This document shows positions 12,001 to 43,949 of a stretch of DNA of 64,000 bases, piece after piece. Source of the stretch: Chrysogorgia sp. JL179-B06 (lineage: Eukaryota; Cnidaria; Anthozoa; Scleralcyonacea; Chrysogorgiidae); the NCBI GenBank assembly GCA_035772405.1, contig JAYKKM010000438.1:1394001-1458000 (forward strand). The letters are read 5' to 3'. Each line of letters opens with the position of its first letter. The stretch's first letter is position 1. A program made the position numbers and the translations under genes. The notes below the pieces were generated by a model that did not search any database, was not told where the DNA came from, and worked only from the letters and a program-made list of their open reading frames with translations.

Positions 12001-13917
12001 TTCAACTATTTACTTAGAATGTACATTCAACTATTCACTTAGAATGTACATTCAACTATTTACTTAGAATGTACATTCCACTATTCACTTAGAATGTACA
12101 TTCCACTATTCGCTTAGAATGTACATTCAACTATTCACTTACAATGTACATTCAACTATTTACTTAGAATGTACATTCAACTATTCACTTAGAATGTACA
12201 TTCAACTATTCACTAATTTCACTTAGAATGTACATTCAACTATTCACTTAGAATGTACATTCAACTATTTACTTAGAATGTACATTCAACTATTCACTTA
12301 GAATGTACATTCAACTATTTACTTAGAATGTACATTCCACTATTGACTTAGTATGTACATTCCACTATTCGCTTAGAATGTACATTCCACTATTCACTTA
12401 GAATGTACATTCAACTATTTACTTAGAATGTACATTCCACTATTCACTTAGAATGTACATTCAACTATTCACTAATTTCACTTAGAATGTACATTCAACT
12501 ATTCACTTATAATGTACATTCAACTATTCACTTAGAATGTACATTCAACTATTCACTTAGAATGTACATTCAACTATTTAGTTAGAATGTACATTCAACT
12601 ATTCACTTAGAATGTACATTCAACTATTCACTTAGAATGTATATTCAACTATTCACTTAGAATGTAGATTCAACCATTCACTTAGAAATTCAACTATTCA
12701 CTTAGAATGTACATTCAACTATTCACTTATAATGTACATTCAACTATTCACGTAGAATGTACATTCAACTATTCACTTAGAATGTACATTCAACTATTCA
12801 CTTAGAATGTAAGAATGTACATTCAACTATTCACTTAGAAGATACATTCAACTATTCACTTAGAATGTATATTCAACTATTCACTTAGTATGTACATTCA
12901 ACTATTCACTTAGAAATTCAACTATTCACTTAGAATGTACATTCGACTATTCACTTAGAATGTACATTCAACTATTCACTTAGAATGTATATTCAACTAT
13001 TCACTTAGAATGTACATTCAACTATTCACTTAGAATGTACATTCAACTATTTACTTAGAATGTATATTCAACTATTCACTTAGAATGTACATTCAACTAT
13101 TCACTTAGAATGTACATTCAACTATTCACTTAGAATGTACATTCAACTATTCACTTAGAATGTACATTCAACTATTTACTTAGAATGTATATTCAACTAT
13201 TCACTTAGAATGTACATTCAACTATTCACGTAGAATGTACATTCAACTATTCACTTAGAATGTACATTCAACTATTCACTTAGAATGTACATTCAACTAT
13301 TCACTTAGAATGTATATTCAACTATTCACTTAAAATGTACATTCAACTATTCACTTAGAAATTCAACTATTCACATAGAATGTACATTCCACTATTCACT
13401 TAGAATGTACATTCAACTATTCACTTAGAATGTACATTCAACTATTCACTTAGAATGTACATTCAAGTATTCACTTAGAAATTAGAATATACATTCAACT
13501 ATTCACTTGGAATGTACATTCAACTATTCACTTAGAATGTACATTCAACTATTCACTTAGAATGTACATTCAACTATTCACTTAGAATGTACATTCAACT
13601 ATTCACTTAGAATGTACATTCAACTGTTCACTTAGAATGTATATTCAACTATTCACTTAGAATGTACATTCAACTATTCACTTAGAAATTCAACTATTCA
13701 CTTAGAATGTACATTCAACTATTCACTTAGAATATACATTCAACTATTCACTTAGAATGTATATTCAACTATTCACTTAGAATGTACATTCAACTATTCA
13801 CTTAGAAATTCAACTATTCACTTAGAATGTACATTCGACTATTCACTTAGAATGTACATTCAACTATTCACTTAGAATGTATATTCAACTATTCACTTAG
13901 AATATACATTCAACTAT
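1..13917. repeat. 25-bp satellite array with higher-order duplications
   Basis: Head-to-tail array with a 25-bp period, already in progress at the window start. Each unit is ACATTC, 13 bp of spacer, then GAATGT. ACATTC and GAATGT are reverse complements, so every junction is the 12-bp palindrome GAATGTACATTC. Common variants are TTTAC for TTCAC, a single change giving ACATTCCAC, TATATTC for TACATTC, and a unit lengthened by about 9 bp (ACTAATTTCACTTA). Rare marker variants recur at fixed distances. ACATTAAAATG is at 987, 1505, 2666, 3059, 7799 and 8192, and AAGAATGTAC follows an aberrant unit at 10621 and 12811. These show block duplications of about 5133, 2190 and 393 bp. Stops occur in all frames, so it is not coding. 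It ends abruptly near 13917. Confidence 0.98.
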
Positions 13918-14476
13918 GTCAATAATATCGTATTTGAGGTGTTAGACACTTTAATGTCGAAAATCAAATTTCTACATCTTAGTTTAAAGTGCCCCTACCC
14001 TTAATTTATTTTCGTTGGATTAATTTTTGTGTTTTCCTGATAGTATCTTTGCACAAATTATTTTTGATTTGATCAAGTGTGGTGATGAAATACGCACATT
14101 CTAGATAAAATCGCCGCCATTTTCGACCTGGCCGAGTTTCAAGGGGAATGGGTCTACCTATTTTGACAAAGTTGCAGAACTCAGGTTATCAGTTCTACAG
14201 TATTTTTTCACTTATTTGATTGAGAGAAATTGTTATTCTACTCAAGAAGTGCGAAGAAATCATAAGAAGGAGAAAATATAAGCAACGCTAGCGCTTTGTT
14301 GTGAAATTACGTCACAGCCCTCTCTTTCTCCCCAGGACTCCTTTTTGCGTTAATTTATCAGGCAAAAAAAATCGAGGATTTAATGAAATCAAAAATCTAC
14401 AGTAGAAGTACAAATGAGCATTTTAAAAACGCCATTTGGAAACATGCATGTCACTGCTGAGCGACTTCAAACTGAC
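13918..14476. other. Unique sequence, predicted SLC6 intron
   Basis: Non-repetitive sequence between the satellite and the SLC6 exon at 14477. It begins on the minus strand with the GTCAGT donor (14476-14471). No gene, RNA or transposon signature was recognised. Confidence 0.6.
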
Positions 14477-15066
14477 CTTTCCGCTTGACTTGATCCCTTT
14501 CACAACGCAAAGATAAACGATTATCCAAGCCAAGATCAAACATCCGACGAGTTTCCCGTTCAGACCGTTGCTGTAGTCTTCAATGTCCGTGGAGATGTCC
14601 AATACTTTAGTGTAAAAGTACCACTGCGGTGGATCAATAACACAGCAGTCGCTAAAGTTACTTATTGCGCGCATTGCTGACTGGTACATGCTTTTAGAAT
14701 GCATTAGGGAAGAATTATCTGTTGTGTTTTTATAATACGTGTAGTTGTTCTGCCAGTACTCCGCATTCTCCTGCAAGGCATGGTACTCGGGATACTTGGT
14801 ACATAACTCGTCTATCTTCCACGGTAAATTCTTTTGCATGGAGACGAACAAATAGAACAGGCACCATGTTATGACAATGACGTAATATATGCAGAGAAGT
14901 AGCGAAACGACTATGCATCCAATACCAACACCGAACAGAGCAGGGTGGATTTTCTTCCACAATCCTACAGCAGTCATTCGCATTTTCTGGCCAATGGCGA
15001 ACTCCAGTAGCATTAATGGTATGCCTTCGATCAACATGAAAATCACGTAAGGAATAAGGAAAGCCC
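14477..15066 (-). CDS. SLC6 family transporter, coding exon 3 (TM2 to TM4)
   Basis: Third visible exon of a sodium (and usually chloride) coupled plasma-membrane transporter of the neurotransmitter/amino-acid symporter family. It starts after the acceptor TCAATTTCAG (ending at 15067) and completes the family motif NGGGAFLIPY across the splice. It encodes TM2 (FLIPYVIFMLIEGIPLMLLE), the AIGQ signature, TM3 (around VSLLLCIYYVIVITW), a long extracellular loop 2 and TM4 ending VKGIKSSGK before donor GTCAGT. The loop has four N-glycosylation sequons (NYT, NTT, NSS, NFS) and the two cysteine positions that normally form a disulphide (DELC and DCC). The exon is 590 nt, phase 1 in and phase 0 out. 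The loop 2/TM4 pattern (KVLDIS, then KGIKSSGK) looks most like the SLC6A15-A20 amino-acid transporter group; substrate is not established. Frame is uninterrupted. Confidence 0.93.
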
Positions 15067-15473
15067 CTGAAATTGAGAGATGAATGTTGTGAGTCAAATC
15101 GAAGTAGACATATGGAAGACACACTATAGGAAACTATAAACCGGCAGATATATCTACACGTTTTGCGGTAATTACCTGGTAATTGAACTAATATTGTTGC
15201 AACTTATACGCAAGCTAAGACGGCGACGGCGGTAAATAAACAATCTAAATTTTAGTATTAAAGTTCCCCTGCAACGAAATATCACATTACGTTTCCTTGC
15301 ATTTTTTGTTATAAAACATCGTTTTAGGTTAATAAATGTTCGAATTTGCCAAAAAATTAACAACAAACATTCTATCACAAGAAATTTAACCTCCAAAGTC
15401 GCCCAAATTTTGTCCGCCATTGCTCAAAACTTGTTCCAGACGAGCCCGCGATTCCACAGCAGAGTATGTGATT

Positions 15474-19256: not shown

Positions 19257-20313
19257 ATACCAACTATCAAGATCAAGGAGTAAAGAGTTTGTTGTTGTTT
19301 GACCTTGCTACTGCCAGCTAAATGCATGGTTTGATTTACTGCCATGCCTTATACACTGAGAAAAAGATTAACTGATTTAATGCTTGCTCAAACTGAACCT
19401 GTTTGCCGGACTGACCATATGAATTCTTATTACATGAGCACAGGCCGGCTCGCTTGCCAGGCTGACCCTGTTGACTAGAACTGGATTAGGTCAGCAAATA
19501 GGATGGCTCATTTGGTGGGGCAGACTTCTCAGTAAGCCAGCTTGGATACTGAGCCAACTCACCTTCATATAATCAAAGCCATTGGCCAACACTATGTTAT
19601 GGGTTTGTAATGATGGAAAATTTAACCACCCCTGCACTGACAGCTGTATCATTACATGTACCATTGTACCTACAACTATAGATTTGTGTATATTGAATTC
19701 AAATCACTGAATTTGCCTACAATGTCTTTCAACAAGCCACAACCTCAAGTAGCCCGAGTTAACGCCTAGCGGGCGTCTTGTTATTATTATACTGTGTTGA
19801 CATTTATCCCGTGAAACTCTGTAATATTAATCATGAAATATTGTGTTTTTGTCCGATTTAAATCAATTCTATATCGAAATGATCACTTGAATCTGGCGAA
19901 TCGAACGCTGTAGGTTTCGTCTACTTAAAATGTGAAGATCAGATGTTATATGAGAAAATGCGTATTAGCGATTAAAGCGAGACTCGTCTCTAAAATCAAA
20001 GGACATGGCTTCAAGATCTATTCGTTGTTTACCCGATGATTTAATGCTCTTATGTCCATTAAACCGATGTAATTTCGTAACAGATATGTTTCGTATGCCT
20101 TGCCGTTGTTTTTTATATAAATTTTGACACACGAAGACCTTCAATCGAACAGATATTAGAAAAAATAACATTGCCGCGTCGGGTATAATATATCACAACA
20201 GCATCAGCATGTTTTATAGTGCCTGTCACTTCATTTATCACTTCATCAATGTTCTTCATTCTTCCATTTACAGCAATTGAGCAACATATTTCAGTACAAT
20301 TTAGCAGCATATT
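19257..20313. other. Unassigned sequence left of the giant element
   Basis: No supported gene. A minus-strand frame at 20312-20170 stays open up to the element boundary, but I do not recognise the product and cannot separate it from chance. Confidence 0.4.
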
Positions 20314-20776
20314 AGTAGATAACCCCCCCCATATGGTGGTATATTTAATGAGGTAGGATGGCATATATAATTAGGCAGGATGCCGTCCTTATGGTGGTAT
20401 ATTTAATGAGGCAGGATGCCGTCCTTATGGTGGTATATTTAATTAGGTAGGATACTGCATAATTAAATATTCAATCGTTATTAACGTCTTAGGCCTCTTA
20501 CACCTTCACGACCCCAATATTGAGGTAGGATGGCATATATAATTAGGCAGGATGCCGTCCTTATGGTGGTATATTTAATGAGGCAGGATGCCGTCCTTAT
20601 GGTGGTATATTTAATTAGGTAGGATACCGTATCATTAAATATATTATATAATTATTAACGTCAAGGGTCTTGTTTAAAGTTTTATATACGATAGCTTCGT
20701 ATTTATACACTTGATATCTATCCATGTGGTCAGACTCATTGTGGAACAGTAGGCATCCCGAAAGCAGCGCATCACA

Positions 20777-21228
20777 ATGGATATTATTTGGGACGAATTG
20801 AGGAGAAATAACGTAAACATCGATAAAGATACGCTATCGTTCCATATCAATACATGTCTTAATGAACACAGAGACTTGTACGAATGTTTTAGCGTTCAAC
20901 TTAATCCAGAATCTTTTCATCTTGTTTACGAAGAAATGAATGTGGATAATTTTGGCCGAGTTATCGCCTATCTTACATTCGTATACCGGTTATGCGATTC
21001 CTGCGATGTACTGAAATAGTCCGAGAAGCCGTAAGAAGAACGATCGAAGATTTCAAACTGATAGACATCAAGGAATATGAACGTAAATCGGTTGGAAATT
21101 GTGGCATGAAAGTAATGCTAGCGAAACTGTTTCTAAAGGCAGTATTTTCATATTTCCGTGTGCAAAGACATCTCCCTCTTCTTCGCGCGTTTTTTATCCG
21201 AGCCAAGAGCGTTGCGTACAAAAAGTAA
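20777..21228 (+). pseudogene. Bcl-2-like (BH1-containing) gene, left arm, frameshifted
   Basis: Left-arm copy of the gene intact at 31041-31499. The frame runs from ATG at 20777 through the BH1-like stretch NVDNFGRVIAYLTF and stops at 21019. A 2-bp insertion near 21008 (TGTACTGAAA against TGTAGAAA in the right arm) shifts the frame, and the C-terminal part continues in another frame from about 20992 to 21228. Because only one arm carries this lesion, it arose after the arms formed or escaped gene conversion. Role in the element is unknown; see the right-arm entry. Confidence 0.6.
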
Positions 21229-21299
21229 TTAGTATTGTTAGCGTGACGAACGCGTAGCACATGTGAGGGACGGAAGTAATTTCGACTCCTTGACTCTCA

Positions 21300-21539
21300 T
21301 TGGGAGTCGTGCGATTACCTAAGCGTTCGTTTGAACCTATATGTCTTCGTTCGAATGAACCTGTGTTTTCACCGCATCTATACAAAGAGATGAACCCTAA
21401 TAATTTTGGCCGTATTATGGCTTATCTCGTTTTAGTGTACACAATTCCTATGATGAAGAAACACTTCGGGAAACAGTTCGAAGAACTGTTCAAGATCTCA
21501 AACATATTGAAAAAATATAAAGTTAATCGTCTTGGTTAA
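21300..21539 (+). pseudogene. Bcl-2-like family, decayed tandem copy 2
   Basis: Diverged copy of the gene at 20777. The window NPNNFGRIMAYLVLVY aligns with NVDNFGRVIAYLTFVY of the outer copy. It then shifts frame, and a segment readable as ETLRETVRRT-like in the next frame matches VREAVRRTIED of copy 1. No intact N-terminus is visible. Confidence 0.5.
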
Positions 21540-21585
21540 ACTGGATGACTCGGCTATTTTATGACGCCGTTGTCATGATGTATAT

Positions 21586-21860
21586 TCACGTTGTTAAGGT
21601 TAAGATTGGCCGAATTATCGCTAATATTCTCGCGTTAGTGTACGGGATTCCAATGGGGGAAGAAACCCTTCGGGAAACAGTGTGAAGAACTGTTCAAGAT
21701 CTCAAACGCATCGACATAGTTAGTTTTGGCGTAAAGTATTGAAGAAACCATTCGCAAAATGATCAGGAATTACAAAATAAGGTTTCCTGGCAGAAGAAGT
21801 ATTATATCTAAGAGTTTTAAATTGGTTGAACGGCTTTACTTCATAGAGAACGACGGAGCG
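21586..21860 (+). pseudogene. Bcl-2-like family, decayed tandem copy 3
   Basis: Reads KIGRIIANILALVYGIP then EETLRETV, a stop and RTVQDLKRIDI. This parallels the BH1-like and following helix of copy 1. A further short match (EETIRKMIRNYKI) and a basic C-terminal stretch follow to about 21860. Confidence 0.45.
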
Positions 21861-21973
21861 AGGAGTTAGAACGAGGATATAAAGCGGACTACCTCTAGCA
21901 GCTTGAATAAATTTGTCCACCAGATCTTATAGATAAAAGCGTGGGAGCCATTAAGTGTAATTAAAGGATTACA

Positions 21974-22135
21974 TGCATGTTTGATAGCATAAGCGTTCAA
22001 ATTGGCAGAAATAACTTACCGAGTAATAATTTCGGGGGAATTATCACTTATCGAACCTTCGTTTATCGATTAAGCGATTCCTGTGTCGAAGAAACACTTT
22101 GGGAAGCAGTGTGAACAACTGTTGGCATTGCTTTC
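21974..22135 (+). pseudogene. Bcl-2-like family, decayed tandem copy 4
   Basis: Reads ISVQIG, then NNFGGIITYRTFVYRL and EETLWEAV before a stop. The order and spacing are those of FSVQL, DNFGRVIAYLTFVYRL and VREAV in copy 1. The arginine of the BH1-like GR pair is replaced by glycine. Confidence 0.45.
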
Positions 22136-22858
22136 AAAGCGTTGCTAGGCCAACTATCCTACGGCCGATATTTGCATATTTCGCCTGAAAGCATGTGTTT
22201 ACAAGGGCACTTATGGAGATATACAAAACCTTATTAATACGTGACACAAATATAGAGTTAAAAAATATTTATATCAGTTACATACGTATACATGTTTTTC
22301 AACGTTTACTTTAACGGGGCATACCTAACAGAAACTAATTAGTATTTTTCGCCTTTCACCTTTACAAGCTTTGGGACCCCCCATGGTATTGTATTAGGCC
22401 CGTTTAGGCCCTATCTGGCCTTCTTTGGCCCGATAAGGCCTTTTGGCCCGTTCGTAGGAGGGAGTTTATACGGTCATCACGCTCCCATCTCTTGTCCTCG
22501 TGAAAGGTTCGAAAGTTTTCTTCGAAATGTAGGCATGAAGATTTGTAAGTCCGTAAGAATAGTGATTATAAATGATTGATTTGAACAAATAACGTTCGAA
22601 ACTAATAAAGTCCCTGTACAAGAACAAAAACCCTAACCATAACCATAACCCAAATAAAAACTCTAGTCCTAGCCCTGAAATAAAGGAATACTAACCCTAC
22701 TTTTAAACAAAAGATTTCAATTATGTAATACACGAAGTAAGAGCCCCATTTTGACTATTTGCGATATTCACCTATTTGCGTATAATATAGCATTTGAGGA
22801 AATTTCTAGCGGGGAATTCAAAATAGGGCTTTTTGGCAATGTTTAAAGACAGATATCT

Positions 22859-23550
22859 CGGACACGAATGGACAAAATCGAAAACCGTAAAAGAACTAAT
22901 CAGCTATTTTTGCGTCCTCTATACAGAGAGAACTAAAATTTATGGAGGGATTATATGATCGAGCTTTAAATTTGGCTGACTCAGTTCATTTTCAAAGTTA
23001 TTGTGTACCTAAAAACCTGTGTAGAGGGACATCAAAGATTGTTCAACGGTATAAGTGTCCAAATAGATGGATTAAATCTTTAACGCGTTTATGATGAAAT
23101 GAAACCTAGCGACTTTAACGTATAACCTAAGGGATTCTCTTGACGAAGAGAAGCCGTACGAAGAACGAATTTTGAATTGTCAAACGAAGCGATGGTTGAG
23201 TGCTCGGACACGAATGGACAAAATCGAAAACCGTAAAAGAACTAATCAGCTATTTTTGCGTCCTCTATACAGAGAGAACTAAAATTTATGGAGGGTTTAT
23301 ATGATCGAGCTTTAAATTTGGCTGACTCAGTTCATTTTCAAAGTTATTGTGTACCTAAAAACCTGTGTAGAGGGACATCAAAGATTGTTCAACGGTATAA
23401 GTGTCCAAATAGATGGATTAAATCTTTAACGCGTTTATGATGAAATGAAACCTAGCGACTTTAACGTATAACCTAAGGGATTCTCTTGACGAAGAGAAGC
23501 CGTTCGAAGAACGAATTTTGAATTGTCAAACGAAGCGATGGTTGAGTGCT
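22859..23550 (+). repeat. Arm-specific 346-bp tandem duplication
   Basis: Two adjacent direct copies starting at 22859 and 23205, both beginning CGGACACGAATGG, nearly identical. Only one copy exists in the opposite arm (about 29104-29450), so the duplication post-dates arm formation. Confidence 0.9.
23041..23536 (+). pseudogene. Bcl-2-like family, decayed copies 5a and 5b
   Basis: Two copies, about 23041-23190 and 23387-23536, created by the local 346-bp tandem duplication. Each reads ISVQIDGLNL, a stop, then VYDEMKPSDFNV and a stop, paralleling the FSVQLNPESFHLVYEEMNVDNF region of copy 1. The right arm holds only one such copy near 29160-29290. Confidence 0.4.
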
Positions 23551-24160
23551 CACTTGGACAATAGCCCGTGGGTCGTTAAGAGGCATTAGTGGTGCAACTC
23601 ACAAATATTTGCATGTCTTGGGAATATTTAATTGTTTTGAGGGTACACACTAGGATATTTATGGGTAAACCGGCATTAGTCAATATGGGATAATTAGGGA
23701 TATTTATCATCCATGACTTCGATGTGAGGCGTTCTTAACACTAATTAAGTATTCCCTCGTAGACTCCTAACTCCAACCTCTTCAAAGCATTCATTTGCCT
23801 GCAAGCGAAATAAAACTTTATCAATATTGCTTTTCTGGATGCAATCGAAATACTGAGAACTTTAACGTGGTTGCTAAGCTTTATTTGGCTGAATCAGACC
23901 ATTCGAGAAGCCAAAGCTAGGCGGTTCTCAGTGTTGCGAACGAAAGTAATTAGCGTTAAGAACGCCTCACATCCCGTGTAGACTCCTAACCCTATTCCAC
24001 GTTCATAACTCTAAATTTAATTATATTTGGAATATCACCGATTCCAATTCCGACTCCTTGACTCTCATCAGGAGTTGTGCGATTGCTTAAGTCTTCGACT
24101 GCACCTATATGTCTGTCTCCGCGTTCGACTGAACCTAGTGTGTTTTCGCCACATCTATAC

Positions 24161-24304
24161 AAAGAGATGAACCCTAATAATGTTTTGCCGTATTATGGCT
24201 TATCTCGCTTTAGTGTACACAATTCCTATGATGAAGAAACACTTCGGGAAACAGTGCGAAGAACTGTTCAAGATCTCACACATATTGACTTGGAAAAAAT
24301 ATAA
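24161..24304 (+). pseudogene. Bcl-2-like family, decayed tandem copy 6
   Basis: Reads LYKEMNPNN, loses frame within the BH1-like motif, then continues as YDEETLRETVRRTVQDL and ends DLEKI. It is closest to copy 2. It is the innermost recognisable member and faces the convergent 148-codon gene at 24517. Confidence 0.5.
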
Positions 24305-24516
24305 ATTTAAACGGCATTGCGTTACAGCGTTGTTATGCTAATGCTTATTGAGATTAGCAAACCATTTGTCGGACTTTCACCAACTACCCTCGGAAGAAAG
24401 GCAATCTATAATTGTCAGGCGAGTGATGAAAATACATTTTAATTTCATTTTATTCCCTAATACACATTACGTGTTGTTACAGCAGTCACTAAAATTAATA
24501 TGCATGGTAAGAATGT

Positions 24517-24963
24517 TTAGTCCCTAATTCCATATAGCAAGTCCCTCGACTGTTCGAATAATAACGCTACAAAATCATCGGCTTCTCTGTCAAACATTAA
24601 TTCGCTTTTCCTTCTTTTTTTCTCTCGCTGCATATTGGCGTAGCTGGTTAACCAATATGATATCTTGTCGTTATGATAGGAACTGCGTTTCTCATTAGGA
24701 TTCCAAGGCTGTATCGTTTCTTCTTTAGCTTTTGTAACCATTTTCTGCAGTGTTTTTCTTGCCTTTAGTTTTAGGATTGTGTGTGCCCGAAGTAATTGCG
24801 TGTTTAAATCGTCGTCTTTTCGGTTCTCCACAAGTTGATGATCTCGTATATAAAGTCGAAGGTTCATTGCCCGTCTCCATTCTTTATTTTCTCCGTCACA
24901 GAACCAAAATGTGCCATTCTTCGTTGTTGATGTAGAAGCGGGTTTTCCACGAAGACACTTCAT
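24517..24963 (-). CDS. 148-codon protein with GRF-like N-terminus, left arm
   Basis: Uninterrupted frame whose predicted protein is identical to the right-arm copy at 27696-28142. The N-terminus has a C-x2-GKPA ... GTFWFC pattern that recalls GRF-type zinc fingers, small nucleic-acid-binding modules. The second and fourth canonical metal ligands are not evident, so this is a weak assignment. The rest is charged and probably helical, with basic clusters (KLKARK, REKKRRKSE) and no signal peptide or membrane segment. On its strand an AATAAA lies about 65 bp past the stop (24454-24449). It converges with the Bcl-2-like array. Being intact beside mostly broken neighbours suggests selection, recent arm homogenisation, or both. 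Confidence 0.55.
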   Translation of the reverse strand: MKCLRGKPASTSTTKNGTFWFCDGENKEWRRAMNLRLYIRDHQLVENRKDDDLNTQLLRAHTILKLKARKTLQKMVTKAKEETIQPWNPNEKRSSYHNDKISYWLTSYANMQREKKRRKSELMFDREADDFVALLFEQSRDLLYGIRD

Positions 24964-25139
24964 TGCGGTGATGTTACGCTGAAGAGAATCAGTACTCGAA
25001 TGGAACGACGCTGTATTTACTCTACGGTTACAGAACTGTTAATCGCCCCATATGCCCCACAAAACACACCAAATGGCCCGGAGGGCCTTTTTCGCGGCCC
25101 TGTGGCCCGTTTGAGAAATATACCCACTATCCCCGCTCT

Positions 25140-25262
25140 AAAGCAAAGTTAAATGTTAAAGTAATGTTAAAAGTTAAAAGTTAATGTAAAGTTAAAAGTA
25201 AAATTAAAAGTTAAAGGCAGGGTCGATCATCACTTGACCGTTCGCTAACAGTTTCTTGACAA
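25140..25262 (-). mobile_element. LINE 3' end with TTTAAC-type tail, inverted
   Basis: On the minus strand, TCAAGAAACTGTTAGCGAAC and the following ATGATCGACCCTGC match the 3' end of the LINE fragment at 25584-25886. They are followed by a TTTAAC-rich tail, so this looks like a second, extremely 5'-truncated insertion in the opposite orientation, abutting the left arm's inner edge. Confidence 0.6.
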
Positions 25263-25309
25263 ACGTTTTTCATGTTTTGTGCAATGAAAAATTTGATCCT
25301 GTGTCAGGG

Positions 25310-25440
25310 GTGAGCGGAGATAGTAGGTATATTTCTCAAACGGGCCACAGGGCCACGAAAAAGGCCCCCAGGGCCATTTTGAAGGATTTATCCCCAGAGA
25401 AAGGGCCACGAAAAAGGCCCTCCGTGCAATTTTGTAAACT
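25310..25440 (+). repeat. Extra partial copy of the arm's inner edge
   Basis: GAGCGGAGATAGTAGGTATA and the following CTCAAACGGGCCACAGGGCC tract repeat the right arm's innermost sequence (27521 onward) with substitutions, then a second GGCC-rich stretch follows. It marks rearrangement of the spacer boundary. Confidence 0.7.
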
Positions 25441-25583
25441 TATCAATATAAATGTTATGCAGTGAACTAAACTATTCAGTTGACATCATTAAAGTAAAGT
25501 TAAAAGTTTAAGTAAAAAGTTAAAGTAAATTTAAAGTTAAAGTTTAAAGTTTAAACTGCTACGGCTGCTACCTCTAGAGGACT

Positions 25584-25886
25584 GCCACCTCTGTCCTACT
25601 GGCACGAGTACATGGACTTAGTATACCTTTTTAAAGCATTAGTTGGTTCATGTGACTCTTACATTTATATTAATTCCTCCAGCCGTGTACCATCCGTACA
25701 AACCGATCAAATCAATTGGTTTTAAATATCCCTAAAGTGAATAGCGTAACTTTTCAGAACAGTTTCTACTGTAGAACGCCTAGGATATTCAACTCTCTGC
25801 CATCACATCTGCGAGACGTTAACCTTTCTATCAAGAAACTGTTAGCGAACGCTCAAGTGATGATCGACCCTGCATTTAACTTTTAA
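25584..25886 (+). pseudogene. LINE reverse transcriptase C-terminal fragment
   Basis: Reads LSYWHEYMDLVYLFKALVG, then after frame changes RTPRIFNSLPSHLRD and SIKKLL before a stop. This is the conserved C-terminal tail of non-LTR retrotransposon ORF2 (a W/F-NSLP-x-xLR pattern). The 3' end runs directly into the TTTAAC-type array, which is best explained as the LINE's microsatellite tail. Strongly 5'-truncated and frameshifted. Confidence 0.75.
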
Positions 25887-27435
25887 TTTTACTTTTAACT
25901 TTACATTAACTTTTAACATTACTTTAACATTTAAATTTGCTGTAACTTTATGTTGCTTTAACTTTAACTTTTAACTTTAACTTTTAACTTTACTGTAACT
26001 TTTAACTTTACTGTAACTTTTAACTTTACTTTAACTTTTAACTTTAACTTTGCGTTGACTTTTAACTTTAACTTTTAACTTTACTTTAACTTTGCTTTAA
26101 CTTTTAAACATTAACTTTGCGTTGACTTTTAACTTTACATTAACTTTTAACTTTACTTTAACATTTAACTTTGCTTTAACTTTTAACTTTACTTTAACTT
26201 TATGTTTACTCTAACTTTTAACTTTACTTTAACTTTATGTTCACTTTAACTTTAACTTTGCTTTAACTTTTAACTTTAACTTTGCGTTGACTTTTAACTT
26301 TACTTTAACTTTTAACTTTAACTTTTAACTTTAACTTTACTTTAACTTTGCTTTAACTTTTAACTTTTAAATCTACTTTAACTTCGCATGCAGCGGGTCA
26401 CAATTTCGGCTATATGGCGATTTGAGGGGTGAATTGTGAGGGAGAGGTATTCTGACTTTTAACTTTACATTAACTTTTAACTTTACTTTAACATTTAACT
26501 TTGCTTTAACTTTTAACTTTACTTTAACTTTTAACTTTACTTGAATTTAACTTTACTTTAATTTTTAAATTTAACTTTAATTTTTAAATTTAACTTTAAT
26601 TTAACTTTACTTTAACTTTTAACTTTGCTGTAACTTTATGTTGCTTTAACTTTAACTTTTAACTTTAACTTTTAACTTTACTGTAACTTTTAACTTTACT
26701 GTAACTTTTTACTTTAACTTTTAACTTTAACTTTGCGTTGACTTTTAACTTTAACTTTTAACTTTACTTTAACTTTGCTTTAACTTTTAAACATTAACTT
26801 TGCGTTGACTTTTAACTTTACATTAACTTTTAACTTTACTTTAACATTTAACTTTGCTTTAACTTTTAACTTTACTTTAACTTTTAACTTTACTTTAACT
26901 TTTAACTTTACTTGAATTTAACTTTACTTTAATTTTTAAATTTAACTTTAATTTTTAAATTTAACTTTAATTTAACTTTACTTTAACTTTTAACTTTGCT
27001 GTAACTTTATGTTGCTTTAACTTTAACTTTTAACTTTAACTTTTAACTTTACTGTAACTTTTAACTTTACTGTAACTTTTAACTTTACTTTAACTTTTAA
27101 CTTTAACTTTGCGTTGACTTTTAACTTTAACTTTTAACTTTACTTTAACTTTGCTTTAACTTTTAAACATTAACTTTGCGTTGACTTTTAACTTTACATT
27201 AACTTTTAACTTTACTTTAACATTTAACTTTGCTTTAACTTTTAACTTTACTTTAACTTTATGTTTACTCTAACTTTTAACTTTACTTTAACTTTATGTT
27301 CACTTTAACTTTAACTTTGCTTTAACTTTTAACTTTAACTTTGCGTTGACTTTTAACTTTTAACTTTACTTTAACTTTTAACTTTTAACTTTAACTTTAC
27401 TTTAACTTTGCTTTAACTTTTAACTTTTAAATCTA
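25870..27435. repeat. Expanded TTTAAC-type array in the element spacer
   Basis: About 1.55 kb of degenerate (TTTAAC/TTTTAAC)n with longer-period variants such as TTTGCGTTGAC, TTTATGTTGC and TTTAAACATTAAC. A unique 70-bp block beginning CTTCGCATGCAGCGGGTCAC occurs at about 26384-26455 and 27434-27512, showing a duplication of about 1.05 kb. It probably grew from a LINE 3' tail. Confidence 0.85.
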
Positions 27436-27695
27436 CTTTAACTTCGCATGCAGCGGGTCACAATTTCGGCTATATGGCGATTTGAGGGGTGAATTGTGAG
27501 GGAGAGGTATTCATGGAGGTGAGCGGGGATAGTGGGTATATTTCTCAAACGGGCCACAGGGCCGCGAAAAAGGCCCTCCGGGCCATTTGGTGTGTTTTGT
27601 GGGGCATATGGGGCGATTAACAGTTCTGTAACCGTAGAGTAAATACAGCGTCGTTCCATTCGAGTACTGATTCTCTTCAGCGTAACATCACCGCA

Positions 27696-28142
27696 ATGAA
27701 GTGTCTTCGTGGAAAACCCGCTTCTACATCAACAACGAAGAATGGCACATTTTGGTTCTGTGACGGAGAAAATAAAGAATGGAGACGGGCAATGAACCTT
27801 CGACTTTATATACGAGATCATCAACTTGTGGAGAACCGAAAAGACGACGATTTAAACACGCAATTACTTCGGGCACACACAATCCTAAAACTAAAGGCAA
27901 GAAAAACACTGCAGAAAATGGTTACAAAAGCTAAAGAAGAAACGATACAGCCTTGGAATCCTAATGAGAAACGCAGTTCCTATCATAACGACAAGATATC
28001 ATATTGGTTAACCAGCTACGCCAATATGCAGCGAGAGAAAAAAAGAAGGAAAAGCGAATTAATGTTTGACAGAGAAGCCGATGATTTTGTAGCGTTATTA
28101 TTCGAACAGTCGAGGGACTTGCTATATGGAATTAGGGACTAA
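27696..28142 (+). CDS. 148-codon protein with GRF-like N-terminus, right arm
   Basis: Mirror copy of 24517-24963 with the same predicted protein over all 148 residues. The ATG at 27696 follows an A-rich/C-rich context (CATCACCGCA) and the frame ends at TAA 28140-28142. AATAAA follows at 28205-28210. It diverges from the inner edge of the arm and converges on the minus-strand Bcl-2-like array. Function unknown; a GRF-like nucleic-acid-binding N-terminus is possible but incomplete. The long K/R/E-rich helical remainder would suit a DNA- or RNA-associated accessory protein (inference). Confidence 0.55.
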   Translation: MKCLRGKPASTSTTKNGTFWFCDGENKEWRRAMNLRLYIRDHQLVENRKDDDLNTQLLRAHTILKLKARKTLQKMVTKAKEETIQPWNPNEKRSSYHNDKISYWLTSYANMQREKKRRKSELMFDREADDFVALLFEQSRDLLYGIRD

Positions 28143-28354
28143 ACATTCTTACCATGCATATTAATTTTAGTGACTGCTGTAACAACACGTAATGTGTATT
28201 AGGGAATAAAATGAAATTAAAATGTATTTTCATCACTCGCCTGACAATTATAGATTGCCTTTCTTCCGAGGGTAGTTGGTGAAAGTCCGACAAATGGTTT
28301 GCTAATCTCAATAAGCATTAGCATAACAACGCTGTAACGCAATGCCGTTTAAAT

Positions 28355-30969
28355 TTATATTTTTTCCAAGTCAATATGTGTGAGATCTTGAACAGTTCTT
28401 CGCACTGTTTCCCGAAGTGTTTCTTCATCATAGGAATTGTGTACACTAAAGCGAGATAAGCCATAATACGGCAAAACATTATTAGGGTTCATCTCTTTGT
28501 ATAGATGTGGCGAAAACACACTAGGTTCAGTCGAACGCGGAGACAGACATATAGGTGCAGTCGAAGACTTAAGCAATCGCACAACTCCTGATGAGAGTCA
28601 AGGAGTCGGAATTGGAATCGGTGATATTCCAAATATAATTAAATTTAGAGTTATGAACGTGGAATAGGGTTAGGAGTCTACACGGGATGTGAGGCGTTCT
28701 TAACGCTAATTACTTTCGTTCGCAACACTGAGAACCGCCTAGCTTTGGCTTCTCGAATGGTCTGATTCAGCCAAATAAAGCTTAGCAACCACGTTAAAGT
28801 TCTCAGTATTTCGATTGCATCCAGAAAAGCAATATTGATAAAGTTTTATTTCGCTTGCAGGCAAATGAATGCTTTGAAGAGGTTAGAGTTAGGAGTCTAC
28901 GAGGGAATACTTAATTAGTGTTAAGAACGCCTCACATCGAAGTCATGGATGATAAATATCCCTAATTATCCCATATTGACTAATGCCGGTTTACCCATAA
29001 ATATCCTAGTGTGTACCCTCAAAACAATTAAATATTCCCAAGACATGCAAATATTTGTGAGTTGCACCACTAATGCCTCTTAACGACCCACGGGCTATTG
29101 TCCAAGTGAGCACTCAACCATCGCTTCGTTTGACAATTCAAAATTCGTTCTTTCGTCAAGAGAATCCCTTAGGTTATACGTTAAAGTCGCTAGGTTTCAT
29201 TTCATCATAAACGCGTTAAAGATTTAATCCATCTATTTGGACACTTATACCGTTGAACAATCTTTGATGTCCCTCTACACAGGTTTTTAGGTACACAATA
29301 ACTTTGAAAATGAACTGAGTCAGCCAAATTTAAAGCTCGATCATATAAACCCTCCATAAATTTTAGTTCTCTCTGTATAGAGGACGCAAAAATAGCTGAT
29401 TAGTTCTTTTACGGTTTTCGATTTTGTCCATTCGTGTCCGAGATATCTGTCTTTAAACATTGCCAAAAAGCCCTATTTTGAATTCCCCGCTAGAAATTTC
29501 CTCAAATGCTATATTATACGCAAATAGGTGAATATCGCAAATAGTCAAAATGGGGCTCTTACTTCGTGTATTACATAATTGAAATCTTTTGTTCAAAAGT
29601 AGGGTTAGTATTCCTTTATTTCAGGGCTAGGACTAGAGTTTTTATTTGGGTTATGGTTATGGTTAGGGTTTTTGTTCTTGTACAGGGACTTTATTAGTTT
29701 CGAACGTTATTTGTTCAAATCAATCATTTATAATCACTATTCTTACGGACTTACAAATCTTCATGCCTACATTTCGAAGAAAACTTTCGAACCTTTCACG
29801 AGGACAAGAGATGGGAGCGTGATGACCGTATAAACTCCCTCCTACGAACGGGCCAAAAGGCCTTATCGGGCCTAATACAATACCATGGGGGGTCCCAAAG
29901 CTTGTAAAGGTGAAAGGCGAAAAATACTAATTAGTTTCTGTTAGGTATGCCCCGTTAAAGTAAACGTTGAAAAACATGTATACGTATGTAACTGATATAA
30001 ATATTTTTTAACTCTATATTTGTGTCACGTATTAATAAGGTTTTGTATATCTCCATAAGTGCCCTTGTAAACACATGCTTTCAGGCGAAATATGCAAATA
30101 TCGGCCGTAGGATAGTTGGCCTAGCAACGCTTTGAAAGCAATGCCAACAGTTGTTCACACTGCTTCCCAAAGTGTTTCTTCGACACAGGAATCGCTTAAT
30201 CGATAAACGAAGGTTCGATAAGTGATAATTCCCCCGAAATTATTACTCGGTAAGTTATTTCTGCCAATTTGAACGCTTATGCTATCAAACATGCATGTAA
30301 TCCTTTAATTACACTTAATGGCTCCCACGCTTTTATCTATAAGATCTGGTGGACAAATTTATTCAAGCTGCTAGAGGTAGTCCGCTTTATATCCTCGTTC
30401 TAACTCCTCGCTCCGTCGTTCTCTATGAAGTAAAGCCGTTCAACCAATTTAAAACTCTTAGATATAATACTTCTTCTGCCAGGAAACCTTATTTTGTAAT
30501 TCCTGATCATTTTGCGAATGGTTTCTTCAATACTTTACGCCAAAACTAACTATGTCGATGCGTTTGAGATCTTGAACAGTTCTTCACACTGTTTCCCGAA
30601 GGGTTTCTTCCCCCATTGGAATCCCGTACACTAACGCGAGAATATTAGCGATAATTCGGCCAATCTTAACCTTAACAACGTGAATATACATCATGACAAC
30701 GGCGTCATAAAATAGCCGAGTCATCCAGTTTAACCAAGACGATTAACTTTATATTTTTTCAATATGTTTGAGATCTTGAACAGTTCTTCGAACTGTTTCC
30801 CGAAGTGTTTCTTCATCATAGGAATTGTGTACACTAAAACGAGATAAGCCATAATACGGCCAAAATTATTAGGGTTCATCTCTTTGTATAGATGCGGTGA
30901 AAACACAGGTTCATTCGAACGAAGACATATAGGTTCAAACGAACGCTTAGGTAATCGCACGACTCCCAA
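28355..30969 (-). pseudogene. Right-arm array of decayed Bcl-2-like copies
   Basis: Mirror image of left-arm copies 2 to 6. The best-preserved pieces are at 30969-30730 (NPNNFGRIMAYLVLVY), about 30690-30540, about 30270-30120, about 29290-29160 and 28582-28355. The lesions are largely shared with the left arm, so most decay preceded the inverted duplication or was spread by gene conversion. Confidence 0.5.
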
Positions 30970-31040
30970 TGAGAGTCAAGGAGTCGAAATTACTTCCGTC
31001 CCTCACATGTGCTACGCGTTCGTCACGCTAACAATACTAA

Positions 31041-31499
31041 TTACTTTTTGTACGCAACGCTCTTGGCTCGGATGAAAAACGCGCGAAGAAGAGGGAGATG
31101 TCTTTGCACACGGAAATATGAAAATACTGCCTTTAGAAACAGTTTCGCTAGCATTACTTTCATGCCACAATTTCCAAGCGATTTACGTTCATATTCCTTG
31201 ATGTCTATCAGTTTGAAATCTTCGATCGTTCTTCTTACGGCTTCTCGGACTATTTCTACATCGCAGGAATCGCATAACCGGTATACGAATGTAAGATAGG
31301 CGATAACTCGGCCAAAATTATCCACATTCATTTCTTCGTAAACAAGATGAAAAGATTCTGGATTAAGTTGAACGCTAAAACATTCGTACAAGTCTCTGTG
31401 TTCATTAAGACATGCATTGATATGGAACGATAGCGTATCTTTATCGATGTTTACGTTATTTCTCCTCAATTCGTCCCAAATAATATCCCCATTGTACAT
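31041..31499 (-). CDS. Bcl-2-like (BH1-containing) protein, intact, 152 aa
   Basis: The only uninterrupted member of the arm gene family. Around residues 62-80 it has FHLVYEEM followed by NVDNFGRVIAYLTF. This matches the shape of the Bcl-2 BH1 region (F-x2-V-x2-EM ... N-W/F-GR-hydrophobic2-A-x2-x-F), with F replacing the usual W. The N-terminal 55 residues are acidic and helical. The C-terminal part (VREAVRRTIEDF, then a basic stretch) lacks an obvious BH2 GGW and a clear membrane anchor. Bcl-2 proteins control mitochondrial apoptosis, and viral homologues occur in several dsDNA virus families; an anti-apoptotic role here is inference. It is the outermost gene of the arm, and six or more relatives lie inward. 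A chance resemblance in a short helical protein cannot be excluded. Confidence 0.5.
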   Translation of the reverse strand: MYNGDIIWDELRRNNVNIDKDTLSFHINACLNEHRDLYECFSVQLNPESFHLVYEEMNVDNFGRVIAYLTFVYRLCDSCDVEIVREAVRRTIEDFKLIDIKEYERKSLGNCGMKVMLAKLFLKAVFSYFRVQRHLPLLRAFFIRAKSVAYKK

Positions 31500-31785
31500 G
31501 CGCTGCTTTCGGGATGCCTACTGTTCCACAATGAGTCTGACCACATGGATAGATATCAAGTGTATAAATACGAAGCTATCGTATATAAAACTTTAAACAA
31601 GACCCTTGACGTTAATAATGATATAATATATTTAATGATACGGTATCCTACCTAATTAAATATACCACCATAAGGACGGCATCCTGCCTCATTAAATATA
31701 CCACCATAAGGACGGCATCCTGCCTAATTATATATGCCATCCTACCTCATTAAATATACCACCATATGGGGGGGGGTTATCTACT

Positions 31786-32064
31786 CACATTTAAACAGTT
31801 TGATCGATTCAATAAAACATGTAAACATAGATTTGATCGAGTCGGAACAACCTGTTTCGAAATCGCTCATCTTTTACTTTTAGTGTAGGTCTACCGCTAT
31901 CGGTGTCTGCGATTGTAAGTAGTGTGAGCATGTTTATTATTAATATACTTGCCAGCCACATTCCTTATCAATCTTATCACAAATTTGCTAGAGTCTTGAA
32001 GTTGATCAATGGCAATGGCGACCAAAGAAGCGTGGATGAATATAAGGTCAGCGCTCGTTTTCAT
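31786..32064. other. Unassigned right flank of the giant element
   Basis: Unique sequence. A minus-strand ATG frame (31837-31781) runs into the element boundary but is only about 18 codons and unrecognised. Confidence 0.4.
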
Positions 32065-35727: not shown

Positions 35728-35863
35728 ACTTAGTCCTCACTTTCTTTTTCTTACAATCCCTACAATAATAAAGCTCGAAGGTACCCCCACATTTAACTCG
35801 ATCACGGTTCGCAATTTCGTCAATTGTGTAGCCATAACTCATTAGTCTCATAAGTTCGTCCAT
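35693..35863 (-). CDS. 56-aa zinc-ribbon-like protein in Polinton
   Basis: ATG at 35863-35861, stop TAG at 35695-35693. The C-terminal half has two metal-binding knuckles, YYCRDC and YVCPNC, plus K-C-G-G turns (VKCGG, TKCGG), a compact zinc-ribbon pattern. The N-terminus MDELMRLMSYGYTIDEIA is a short helix-turn segment. Similar zinc ribbons occur in viral transcription factors, but no specific function can be assigned. It lies directly downstream of the membrane/coiled-coil gene on the same strand. Confidence 0.45.
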   Translation of the reverse strand: MDELMRLMSYGYTIDEIANRDRVKCGGTFELYYCRDCKKKKVRTKCGGYVCPNCEL

Positions 35864-35865
35864 CG

Positions 35866-36274
35866 CTTATAATAAGTGAACATTTTTTATCGGGCAACGC
35901 GCGCACCACCATTCCACTGGTGAGACCCACCATACCAATGAACAACAATTGGTATTCCTTCATTTCCGCACTCTCATGATAGTAATCTGCAAACTTCGGT
36001 TTCTCAGTAAACACTCGACCATCGTATACTGAATGGTCATTACGCCTCTCAGCTGATCCAACGCGCGGTTTGTGTCATTGATGTCCGCATTAGCATCTGA
36101 AATCATTTGTCGCAAACGCTGGATTTTGTCTTTTTTAGCGACTAGCTCATTTTCGTACCATGCTTCTTTTGAACTTGTTAATTGTTCCAACGCGCGGTTA
36201 AGCTTCGAAAACAGAAAGCCAGCACCTGCGAAGGCTATCGCATTGAAAATCCCTCCACCCACAACACTCACCAT
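35866..36274 (-). pseudogene. Polinton membrane/coiled-coil protein, frameshifted
   Basis: The N-terminus has a hydrophobic segment (VVGGGIFNAIAFAGAGFLF), probably membrane-spanning. A heptad-like coiled coil follows (NRALEQLTSSKEAWYENEL and RLRQMISDANADINDTNRAL). The frame shifts near 36015, after which FTEKPKFADYYHESAEMKEY and a second hydrophobic stretch follow in another phase. Probably one ancestral gene of about 130-140 residues. Exact Polinton family not recognised. Confidence 0.5.
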
Positions 36275-36450
36275 TAACTTACGTTGATTTTAGTGGGTCT
36301 GTTGGTATCCACTTTTTCGATTGCAACCATTTTACTAACAGCGTTCCTGCACCAACTGCCACATGTTTTATTCACTCATCAAATGTGCAGGTACCACAAC
36401 TGACGTACTTTCCTGCACTTTCACACCTTTGTGCGTATACCACAACGCAG

Positions 36451-36534
36451 AGGTGGCGCCAATGGGGGGCAGGGTGGCTACAGCCCCCGGGGACCTTAGC
36501 CCCTGCGTCGGGGAGTTCCTGGCGCCTGGCGCCA
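36451..36534. repeat. GC-rich palindromic island
   Basis: A sharply GC-rich stretch in AT-rich surroundings. GGTGGCGCCA near the start is repeated inverted as TGGCGCCACC at the end. It looks like a very small inserted hairpin element. Confidence 0.5.
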
Positions 36535-36647
36535 CCCCTGCCACAACGACACAGCACCAACCAATAATGTAACCATAGTCCCACGTTGATTCTTCATGAA
36601 TTATCATTTCACGCATTAACCCTAAGTTAGCTCAATTTGACGATGGA

Positions 36648-37307
36648 ATGGAATTCTACAACGTTGGGGTGAAAAGTTTGTTGAAAGAACGTGGCATTGA
36701 GTACTTTAGCACTAACAGTGATAACAAAGCTGCTGTCGTTGAACGTTTTAACAGAAGCCTTAAAACTATTATGTGGAAGTATTTTTATGCACGTGGAATG
36801 TACAAATGGATTGACATTTTAGACCAGCTTGTGGGAAATTACAATGGTAATGTGAATCGAAGTATTATGATGAAACCAAAGGATGTTAACCATGCAAACG
36901 AAAATGAAGTATGGACCACTTTGTTTGGCCACCAATTTGCAGACACTCCGTTACCAAAGTTCAAAGGCGAATTGGTGAGGATTAGTAAGTACAAAAGTGT
37001 ATTCACAAAGCGCTATGAAACTAACTTTACTGAAGAGCTGTTTAAAGTGACACATGTTATTCGTGGTGACCCGCGGACTGTGTACGAAATTGAGGACAAC
37101 ACCGGTGAACAGATCATTGGGAAATTCTATGAACAGGAATTATCGCTGGTTAATAAGAGAGATGATGTGTACAGAGTTGAAAAGGTATTAAAAAGAAAGA
37201 AAGTCAGGGGAAAGAAAATGGTGTTGGTTAAATGGTTGGGCTATGACAGTAAACATGTAATTCATGGATACCAGAAAGTGACGTGGTCAAAATGTGAGTT
37301 AATGTAA
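36648..37307 (+). CDS. Polinton integrase, C-terminal part with chromodomain
   Basis: About 219 codons without interruption. The first third carries the end of the rve-type integrase core: the SDNKAAVVERFNRSLK stretch with the glutamate of the DDE triad, then NRSIMMKPKDV. The middle (residues about 95-155) resembles the SH3-like integrase tail with YKSVFTKRYETNFTEELFKV. Residues about 172-219 form a chromodomain (YRVEKVLKRKK, LVKWLGY, TWSKCEL). The first two catalytic aspartates are missing, so the gene is 5'-truncated; the apparent start codon is internal to the original gene. It would catalyse element integration if complete. TAA at 37305-37307 overlaps the next frame's ATG by one base. Confidence 0.85.
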   Translation: MEFYNVGVKSLLKERGIEYFSTNSDNKAAVVERFNRSLKTIMWKYFYARGMYKWIDILDQLVGNYNGNVNRSIMMKPKDVNHANENEVWTTLFGHQFADTPLPKFKGELVRISKYKSVFTKRYETNFTEELFKVTHVIRGDPRTVYEIEDNTGEQIIGKFYEQELSLVNKRDDVYRVEKVLKRKKVRGKKMVLVKWLGYDSKHVIHGYQKVTWSKCELM

Positions 37308-38628
37308 TGGCTGAAGGTGGAGAAGGTTTCGATGACTTTGAGATGAAAGACCTCAACTAGTACGAAGACGCTACTAACGAGCAATTAAACGAGGAGCTCG
37401 CTGAGACTGAAGGGTGGCTCAAAGAAATAGACACCAAGTACGTCGAAAAGGATATGCCGAGACGCGTCCGTGTTAGTTACGACGACAATCGCGACATTGT
37501 AAGTAAGATAAAAAACGAGCTATAGCTAGAAGGCAAGGTGAGCAAGAAGAAACGTCATTTAACGACACCGATGGTGCTGGTCCCACTTATTGTCACCGTT
37601 TTACCACGGAAGTCCCAACAGTTGTTGTTGATCCACCATTGAATCCTGAGAACCGACCTTTGCCAAGCATACAAAAGTTCGTTAGTAGTGACATTGAAAG
37701 TGGGTTTAAGTTCAACGAACATGACCCTGACGTATTGGCACTGCGAAACAGAGTGCCAATGAGCAAGGGAAACAGCGTGTTATTCAAACCCAGAAAGAAC
37801 AATAACGAATTCGGTAAAGAACAAATAGTTCTCATCAAACGTGAAAAAGATGGTGTTGTGAGGTATATATAGTGACACTAAGATAGCACAACGGAGTGTC
37901 GATCAATTTAAAGAGCTAATAAACAGAATCTTAGACAACGCAAAAGACCGTGAAAACGTTGCAAGGAGGGTATACCATTGTTAGCCACACCACCACACAC
38001 GCGGAATACGTAGAAGGGTTGACACCAAACGAGAACCGTGAACTGAGTGGTGTGCTTAATCTAAGTGCAGGGAGTGCGTTGCGTGATTCTCGAATAGGTG
38101 ACGATGGTGCACTGCAGGTCCAAGCAGACCACTTCCAAGACACGATAAATAGGACAATGGACGAATTAAACGATGAGGACGACGAAAACATTAGTTCTAG
38201 GTTAAAGGATCGTATCGCAGAGCTTGAAGAAGCGCGAGACAAAACTATTGAACAGTGCATGGGAACTTGAACAAGTTAGAGAACAACAAGAAGTCAACAT
38301 CGACAGGCTGCAGAAGTTCAAGAAGTGGGCTAAAGAAAATATGGTTGGGTTGAGTGCTGTAGTGATTTCAGTGACTGGAATTATAACAACTATTATCATC
38401 GCTGGGAGGTCTGCTGTTTTTAAGGGTGCTCAAGCTTCAAGGTCGTTCGCACAGGCTGTTAAGAACGCGATAATGAAGTTAGGTCCATGGGCTATTGGAT
38501 TGGCTAACTTTTTGTATAATGTAATGTCAGCAGGTGCAAAGGGTCTTGCTTGGCTGGCTCAAAATCTGTGGGTACTTATGGTGATACTTGCGTGCTGGTT
38601 GTACGACTTGTGGAAACAAAATAAATAA
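37307..38628 (+). pseudogene. Polinton virion/membrane protein, several frameshifts
   Basis: Probably one ancestral gene of about 430 codons, now broken by at least two in-frame stops (37358, 37523) and several frameshifts. In order: an acidic N-terminus beginning at ATG 37307; a proline-containing domain (NPENRPLPSIQKF, then FNEHDPDVLALRNRV; 37639-37872); a charged segment (LTPNENRELSGVLNLSAGSA) with coiled coil (DRIAELEEARDKTIEQ); and a C-terminus with two hydrophobic stretches (VGLSAVVISVTGIITTIIIA and LWVLMVILACWLYDLW). The architecture suits a membrane-associated minor virion protein. I cannot name the family. Confidence 0.5.
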
Positions 38629-38697
38629 AATGTGTGCACCATTATATGAACGCCACTGCAGGGGAATTGTCTCCCAGCTAGTTTTAGACGAGCACGA

Positions 38698-39667: not shown

Positions 39668-39692
39668 AAAGATTGTAAACACGTAATCCGGT

Positions 39693-39938
39693 GTGTTTCT
39701 TGAAATCACTAAGAAAGCGACGACAGCTTGTGGTAAGACACATTACCTGCTTGACACACTGGAATCTGAGTACAAACGTAAGTTCGATTACATTGTGTTG
39801 ATTTGTCCTACTTGGAAATACATACACGACCCTGACGTGTTAGCGATAGACTGTGCACAAGACAATGTCGATGCTGTTCTCAAGTACGTAATGTTACAAT
39901 ATACTTTTAGTATAGCCAACCACCCTACATATAATTAG
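39693..39938 (+). pseudogene. Polinton packaging ATPase, N-terminal fragment
   Basis: Contains TTACGKTHYLLDTLES, a Walker A P-loop of the A32/FtsK-like genome-packaging ATPase type, followed by the strand DYIVLICPTW typical of the family. The normal glycine of GxxxxGKT at the loop start is not evident. The frame is open for about 81 codons and then ends at a stop and the right TIR, so Walker B and the rest are lost. Confidence 0.7.
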
Positions 39939-43634: not shown

Positions 43635-43949
43635 GATCTTTTAAATGATTTATATAACCTTGCTGTAGTTCATTCAGCTCCGCAGTCAATCCCCCTGGGT
43701 ATTCAAATTCCGCCGCCCCCCACTTTTTATGATGCTAATATAAATATTGGGGATATTAGCGGATTTAGCTATACTGTATACATCCCGCGGTAGATCAAAG
43801 AAAACCAATTACGAGTTTCCAGCTAGATCTGATGAGTGCAACATCATGTGCACGAAACTGAACAGTAATTAAAAATGCTTAAGTGAAAACCTTCGTCTCC
43901 TTTACTTTTATCTTATAATGCTCTGGACTAGTTTCATTGAGCACTCTGC

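Follow-up and report, generated by a model that had tools for sequence, protein, structure and literature searches.

A palindromic element with Bcl-2-like genes in its arms, probably a non-autonomous Polinton derivative, in the genome of Chrysogorgia sp. JL179-B06

The window considered here is a stretch of 64,000 nucleotides (contig JAYKKM010000438.1; G000:C438:1394001-1458000) within the 780,986,399-base, 522-contig genome (781 Mb) of the anthozoan Chrysogorgia sp. JL179-B06. At 20314..31785 (C438:1414314-1425785) it contains an 11.5-kb element composed of two inverted arms around a non-palindromic centre. With a probability of about 0.83, this element is non-autonomous and arose, as a palindrome, from an element of Polinton/adintovirus type: both of its arms end in the tips of such an element and carry accessory genes from near one of that element's ends.

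An earlier note on this DNA described arms that match from the very tips inward, termini that are exact inverses, and adjoining hexamers that share five of six bases. All three descriptions hold. Over about 4,260 aligned bases the arms differ by 8 substitutions (0.19%) and 7 indels (1, 172, 1, 2, 2, 30, and 360 bp); tandem duplications present in the left arm only account for the 172-bp indel and for 346 of the 360 bp. (A second, global alignment of the arms, with 36 substitutions, was set aside for misplacing the 172-bp gap at the tip.) Both ends read AGTAGATAACC. The flanking hexamers, CATATT and CACATT, agree to a degree expected with P = 0.0068 for random 6-mer pairs drawn from the window, and six is the only length that stands out when flanks of 3 to 12 bases are compared. 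Beyond the tips, the left and right flanks are unrelated, their alignment containing only 9- and 10-bp matches.

The arms carry two kinds of gene (Table 1). One open reading frame (ORF), of 158 residues, is Bcl-2-like. Its Pfam match to Bcl-2 (PF00452, E 0.0041) lies below the cut-off; its structure model, built from 51 sequences, reaches a predicted local distance difference test (pLDDT) score of 81, and 50 of the 50 chains listed in the structure comparison belong by title to the Bcl-2 family. Searched against PDB by sequence, the ORF has no match at E<=5, and by profile a single one, a designed binder (E 0.41). A tree of 51 Bcl-2-like proteins gave no well-supported place for the window protein. 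The other ORF, of 173 residues, has no credible Pfam match of its own, one relative at 67%, and an unusable structure model (pLDDT 41.7). The centre consists of satellite and a fragment that we take to be part of a long interspersed nuclear element (LINE), with no Pfam match, and not of viral core genes.

The earlier note proposed looking for full-length relatives with integrase and polymerase genes between similar arms. One such relative, C385a, was found, with the window's Bcl-2-like gene at its right end. C385a encodes a family-B DNA polymerase (PolB; PF03175, DNA_pol_B_2, E 1e-43); a 360-residue integrase with rve (1.5e-15) and Chromo (1.3e-12) domains; a 259-residue protein with GRF zinc fingers (PF06839, E 2.7e-20); and ORFs that are presumably penton-, major-capsid-, and adenain-like. 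Judged by these predicted genes, it appears to be a Polinton/adintovirus-type element. Inward from its right tip the order is Bcl-2-like ORF, GRF ORF, integrase. The Bcl-2-like ORF is 97% identical to that of the window over 130 residues (E 2e-86), and the GRF protein matches the 173-residue window ORF at 58% over 43 residues (E 1.5e-9). In nucleotide sequence, the window arm and the C385a right end are 98.7% identical along 526 bp, and for 182 bp directly at the tip the identity is 92%; the tips of the two elements differ at one position in 11. The shared Bcl-2-like and GRF end genes, along with the arm match, thus argue that the window arms consist, at least in part, of accessory sequence from a Polinton-type end.

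The core of C385a has no counterpart in the window element. Neither its PolB ORFs (by tblastn), nor its integrase, nor its major capsid protein (MCP)-, penton-, and protease-like ORFs match the element at E 1e-6, and the scanned ORFs contain no Pfam polymerase match of this type. The earlier note's statement that core genes are absent while accessory genes sit inside the arms is therefore correct as far as these comparisons reach. Relatives were also sought among viral and prokaryotic contigs (viral_contigs and genome_contigs) and in phage DNA, and none were found there.

Further copies with the same ends and differing 6-bp duplications, which the earlier note had suggested seeking, do exist in this genome, and the refuting outcome that it named, the lack of any second copy with these termini, did not occur. 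Searched with the outermost 387 bases of the left arm, the genome shows 51 matches, among which are, besides the window, eight facing pairs of tips 8.8-20 kb apart. Both tips can be read in six of these eight copies (the exclusions are C244, for its right tip, and C385b, for its left), and all six have exact 6-bp target-site duplications, mutually different: TCTCCA, AATCCT, TATGTT, GACATT, AACATT, and GACCTT. A seven-base comparison fails in every one of the six. Four copies are near-complete palindromes, with arms of 6.3 kb (C522), 6.2-6.4 kb (C61), 5.0-5.1 kb (C284), and 4.1 kb (C475) and, from match coordinates, spacers of about 0.46-1.6 kb. The core proteins and integrase of C385a have no match in the pieces of C215, C522, C284, C61, C475, C385b, and C244, the search covering the fetched parts of C215 and C244. 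The LINE-like 3' fragment is common to the inner parts of L036, L037, L038, L039, L040, L042, L043, and L044, and forms an inverted pair in C522, C61, and C475; it may have been captured long ago and have travelled with the arms since. Both haplotypes may be present in the assembly, in which case certain copies could be alleles of one another; C143 and C520 are similar in appearance. On C159 and C481, several diverged tip sequences cluster at short distances, perhaps as nested or tandem copies. The second C385 copy contains a remnant of a DDE_3-type transposase (L040:479-1033; E 4e-5, under the cut-off).

A search of the genome with the Bcl-2-like protein revealed a further class of copies. 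It returned 2,510 first-look candidate places, of which 150 were scored; all 150 matched, most of them listed without an inside stop, and the resulting copy counts are lower bounds. On these protein matches, this is an unusual amplification of a putative cell-death gene family. Besides the window, 14 facing pairs, 4-23 kb apart, were picked out by eye among the scored matches, 8 of the 14 at 8.2-8.8 kb. Ends were fetched for six (C34, C498, C143, C149, C82, and C264), and a script confirmed exact 6-bp duplications in three: AACGTC (C34), TATACC (C143), and AGTATC (C264). For C143 the outer edge was used, an inner AGTAG site flanked by TTTAAA having been dropped because that hexamer is its own inverse and hence meaningless. 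The nine script-confirmed 6-bp duplications all differ from each other. C498 gave none by script; by eye TACTTT stands on both sides at its edges, where the two tips are unlike. The C149 copy (L062) has different tips (AGTAGTAGAG), and MCP- and protease-like matches occur in several frames of its centre.

Four of these copies (C34, C498, C143, and C264) carry Bcl-2-like and integrase 5' sequence in both arms. To this extent the earlier note's comparison with linear viruses that have gene-rich termini stands: it fits these intermediates. In C34, C264, and C143, the three examined, the integrase on one side extends to residue 360 and the penton-like gene comes next, and the second integrase copy ends at residue 147 in all three. 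The centre of C34, the member of this class covered end to end, contains capsid-like ORFs at 76-97%. The two PolB ORFs of C385a match none of 42 pieces of 13 other copies at E 1e-4. On the simplest reading, the polymerase end was overwritten in one event by a copy of the integrase/Bcl-2 end, and the product then spread.

Arm identity within and between copies was compared over 2.4-kb end pieces (1.2 kb only for C215, 245 bp for C385a, and BLAST pieces for the window). Within copies it is 0.997 (C522), 0.995 (C284), 0.998 (C61), 0.996 (C215), 0.970 (C475), 0.962 (C385b), 0.939 (C385a), and 0.990 (window). In the 28 between-copy comparisons, for each of which the arm pair with the highest product of identity and length was taken, the values lie between 0.849 and 0.986, and in six of the eight copies the within-copy value exceeds the best between-copy value. 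C522, C61, and C284 have a common layout, with LINE-like pieces and, close to the centre, the same second inverted pair of about 235 bp; this likeness suggests descent from one palindromic ancestor. Even so, their outer arms are 0.995-0.998 identical within a copy and 0.961-0.980 identical to those of sister copies. By these identities, the arms of one copy seem to be equalised. Copying of one arm from the other, by fold-back replication or by host conversion, would explain the likeness; the data fit both routes.

These observations would fit the following course of events. One end of a parent element (tip, Bcl-2-like gene, and GRF-type gene) would have been placed at both ends, inverted, and the core (polymerase, integrase, and capsid genes) lost. 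Because the relative's polymerase is of the PolB type, the parent genome may be linear and replicate by protein priming, and the end duplication may have taken place during such replication, as in defective viral genomes. Arms would then be equalised by copying, one serving as template for the other by way of a fold-back or panhandle strand. Because of the tips and the duplication length, we infer that the parent element's integrase inserts copies in trans. The earlier note had guessed at a non-autonomous passenger of a Polinton-type integrase; the shared tips, the exact 6-bp duplications, and C385a support that guess, with movement in trans as its conjectural part. The Bcl-2-like protein may modulate host cell death.

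Several points weigh against this reading. C385a resembles the window element closely in only part of the arm's outer ~680 bp, and farther in the closest matches (about 78-98%) are to other copies. The arm is thus a mosaic, with segments nearest C385a, C522/C215, C61, C475, and C215-left, and both arms carry the identical mosaic. The GRF-related ORF is oriented opposite to that in C385a. The capsid-like ORFs of C385a lack a Pfam match and are of presumed identity. The window copy's own duplication is not exact; that of C149 is also five of six, and C82 has no tip pair. As to equalisation, C385a breaks the rule that identity is higher within than between copies (it is not a palindrome, and 245 bp were compared), and C385b, at 0.962 within, reaches 0.970 to C385a over 167 bp, with values of at most 0.919 in longer comparisons. 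The inner blocks of C522, C284, C61, and C475, partly satellite, are mostly 95-97% alike, below the outer 2.4 kb. Finally, C215, a related copy with Polinton-type tips, contains centrally a 751-residue ORF for a P-element-type transposase (L043:1047-3299; TNP-like RNase H, E 1.4e-19).

That transposase is the chief argument for a different origin, in which a fold-back transposon of the P superfamily, moved by such an enzyme, picked up Polinton ends. The very long inverted arms, which contain tandem repeats, recall Galileo and other fold-back DNA transposons. Galileo has a P-type transposase and a 7-bp duplication, and P and Galileo duplications measure 7-8 bp; those found here are exactly 6 bp, next to tips that are those of a PolB- and integrase-bearing element. 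The C215 transposase, moreover, has no match in the 41 other pieces searched; it may have inserted there as a nested element. This origin is very improbable. That host DNA was simply duplicated in inverted orientation, or that the assembly is at fault, can be set aside almost entirely: such events can generate large inverted repeats, but here the same tips recur elsewhere with different 6-bp duplications, the flanks are unrelated, the arms differ by tandem duplications, and the centre is non-palindromic. A more serious competitor keeps the Polinton ancestry and dispenses with equalisation, palindromes forming anew from one Polinton end and high arm identity simply marking recent formation. The outer arms of palindromic copies are 96-99.8% alike, as a recent inverted duplication predicts; the lower identity of the inner blocks agrees with it, as does the end duplication in C34-type copies. 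The sister copies C522, C61, and C284 tell against it, for they look like descendants of one palindrome and yet resemble themselves more than each other, and we consider it unlikely.

Defective viral genomes with duplicated ends are known from infections. The window element resembles them, and the terminal transpositions of poxviruses, in having one end copied inverted over the other, the core lost, and an origin at both ends; it differs in being fixed in a host genome, multicopy, with target-site duplications. Likeness to Polintons/Mavericks also lies in C385a, with its PolB, its integrase with rve domain and chromodomain, and its presumed capsid-like ORFs. Vertebrate Mavericks, in the available text of PMC8097293, have 6-bp duplications, (AGT)2 or (AG)3 end motifs, and terminal inverted repeats of 46-1,447 bp, and in most of them accessory regions flank the core. 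The window element shares with them the 6-bp duplication, AGT-starting tips, inverted ends, and accessory regions outside the core; unlike theirs, its arms measure 4.3-4.8 kb and bear genes, and its core is gone. Adintoviruses are defined, in the accessible part of PMC11071296, by an OTU-bearing PolB and a hexon, and the window copy has neither gene; the C385a integrase, with its C-terminal chromodomain, is of the kind described there. The window element is best classed as a non-autonomous Polinton derivative and not itself as a Polinton. From the same portion of PMC11071296, anti-apoptotic homologs, candidate oncogenes, or both appear to be encoded by most mammal-associated adintoviruses. A BCL2-like motif occurs as well in Burro, the giant retrotransposons of planarians (PMC6431247, in the text available), which are long terminal repeat (LTR) retrotransposons and in mechanism unrelated. 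The words Polinton, Maverick, and adintovirus are absent, by term search, from the accessible text of a review of viral Bcl-2 proteins (PMC11209288). The literature searched, mostly without subscription papers, includes work on Polintons and adintoviruses, but palindromic, gene-bearing Polinton derivatives do not occur in its titles or abstract openings, which does not prove their absence.

Forms comparable to defective genomes are here fixed as mobile elements, alongside the parent type and an intermediate. More tentatively, this genome might keep a germline ladder of the defective genomes of an integrating DNA virus: full-size elements; end-duplicated ones with capsid and integrase genes and no polymerase; and core-less palindromes of ends and Bcl-2-like genes. 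The last would behave as inherited satellites in competition with the helper virus; each round of replication would rewrite one arm from the other, and through these satellites a regulator of cell death would have reached many sites in the genome. The genome also shows how an accessory gene of Polintons, here one for a Bcl-2-like and presumably cell-death-regulating protein, can multiply within its host. Questions that become testable include free linear replication of Polintons; the use of Polintons in trans by core-less satellites; and arm divergence as an insertion clock like that of LTRs. If an arm is copied at replication, the divergence of 0.19% would, given a rate, date the window insertion.

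Table 1. Features of the element and its full-size relative (window positions, except for C385a)
Feature	Position	Strand	Remarks
Left arm (terminal inverted repeat)	20314-25138	+	4,825 bp
Right arm (terminal inverted repeat)	27521-31785	-	4,265 bp
Left tip AGTAGATAACC	20314-20324	+	exact; same tip in other copies
Right tip AGTAGATAACC	31775-31785	-	exact inverse of left tip; same tip in other copies
Left 6-bp target-site duplication copy, CATATT	20308-20313		5/6 bases match right copy
Right 6-bp target-site duplication copy, CACATT	31786-31791		5/6 bases match left copy
Subterminal tandem units, 22/36 bp, with GG[CT]AGGAT boxes	20337-20662	+	block duplicated as 172-bp tandem, left arm only
Subterminal tandem units, right arm	31640-31761	-	repeat analysis and arm alignment
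346-bp tandem duplication	22857-23551	+	left arm only
Bcl-2-like ORF, 158 aa, open	31041-31517	-	Pfam, predicted structure, 97% aa match to C385a
Left-arm Bcl-2-like gene copy	20753-21228	+	split into two frames, 20753-21019 and 20950-21228
Second Bcl-2-like piece, right arm	30730-30975	-	mirror 21294-21539 (+); motif scan, alignment; no Pfam match
Third, broken Bcl-2-like piece, right arm	28318-28597	-	mirror 24062-24341 (+); motif scan; no Pfam Bcl-2 match
173-aa ORF, related to GRF zinc-finger gene of C385a	27621-28142	+	protein comparison
Left-arm copy of 173-aa ORF	24517-25038	-	identical translation
Centre	25139-27520		2,382 bp; LINE-like fragment and satellite, not viral core
LINE-like 3' fragment in centre	about 25555-25886	+	same fragment in other copies
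Short inverted copy in centre	near 25217-25259		repeat analysis
Satellite in centre	25875-27444		repeat analysis
C385a	C385:554472-569283		14.8 kb; inverted ends of roughly 0.3 kb; duplication TCTCCA

The surroundings of the element are varied. A satellite array with a 25/50-bp unit (ACATTCAACTATTCACTTAGAATGT) runs for at least 13.9 kb from the window edge (1-13917), and part of a sodium:neurotransmitter symporter gene follows at 14423-15133 (Pfam SNF, 1e-41). At 41865-43640 lie ORFs that we take to resemble Penelope-like reverse transcriptase, with no credible Pfam match. About 4 kb to the right of the element, at 35820-39938, is a decayed Polinton; other ORFs in that interval are presumably also of Polinton type. 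Its partial integrase, with a chromodomain just under the cut-off (Chromo 3.2e-5), is 47% identical to the C385a integrase over 215 residues and diverges strongly from the integrase carried by the relatives of the element.

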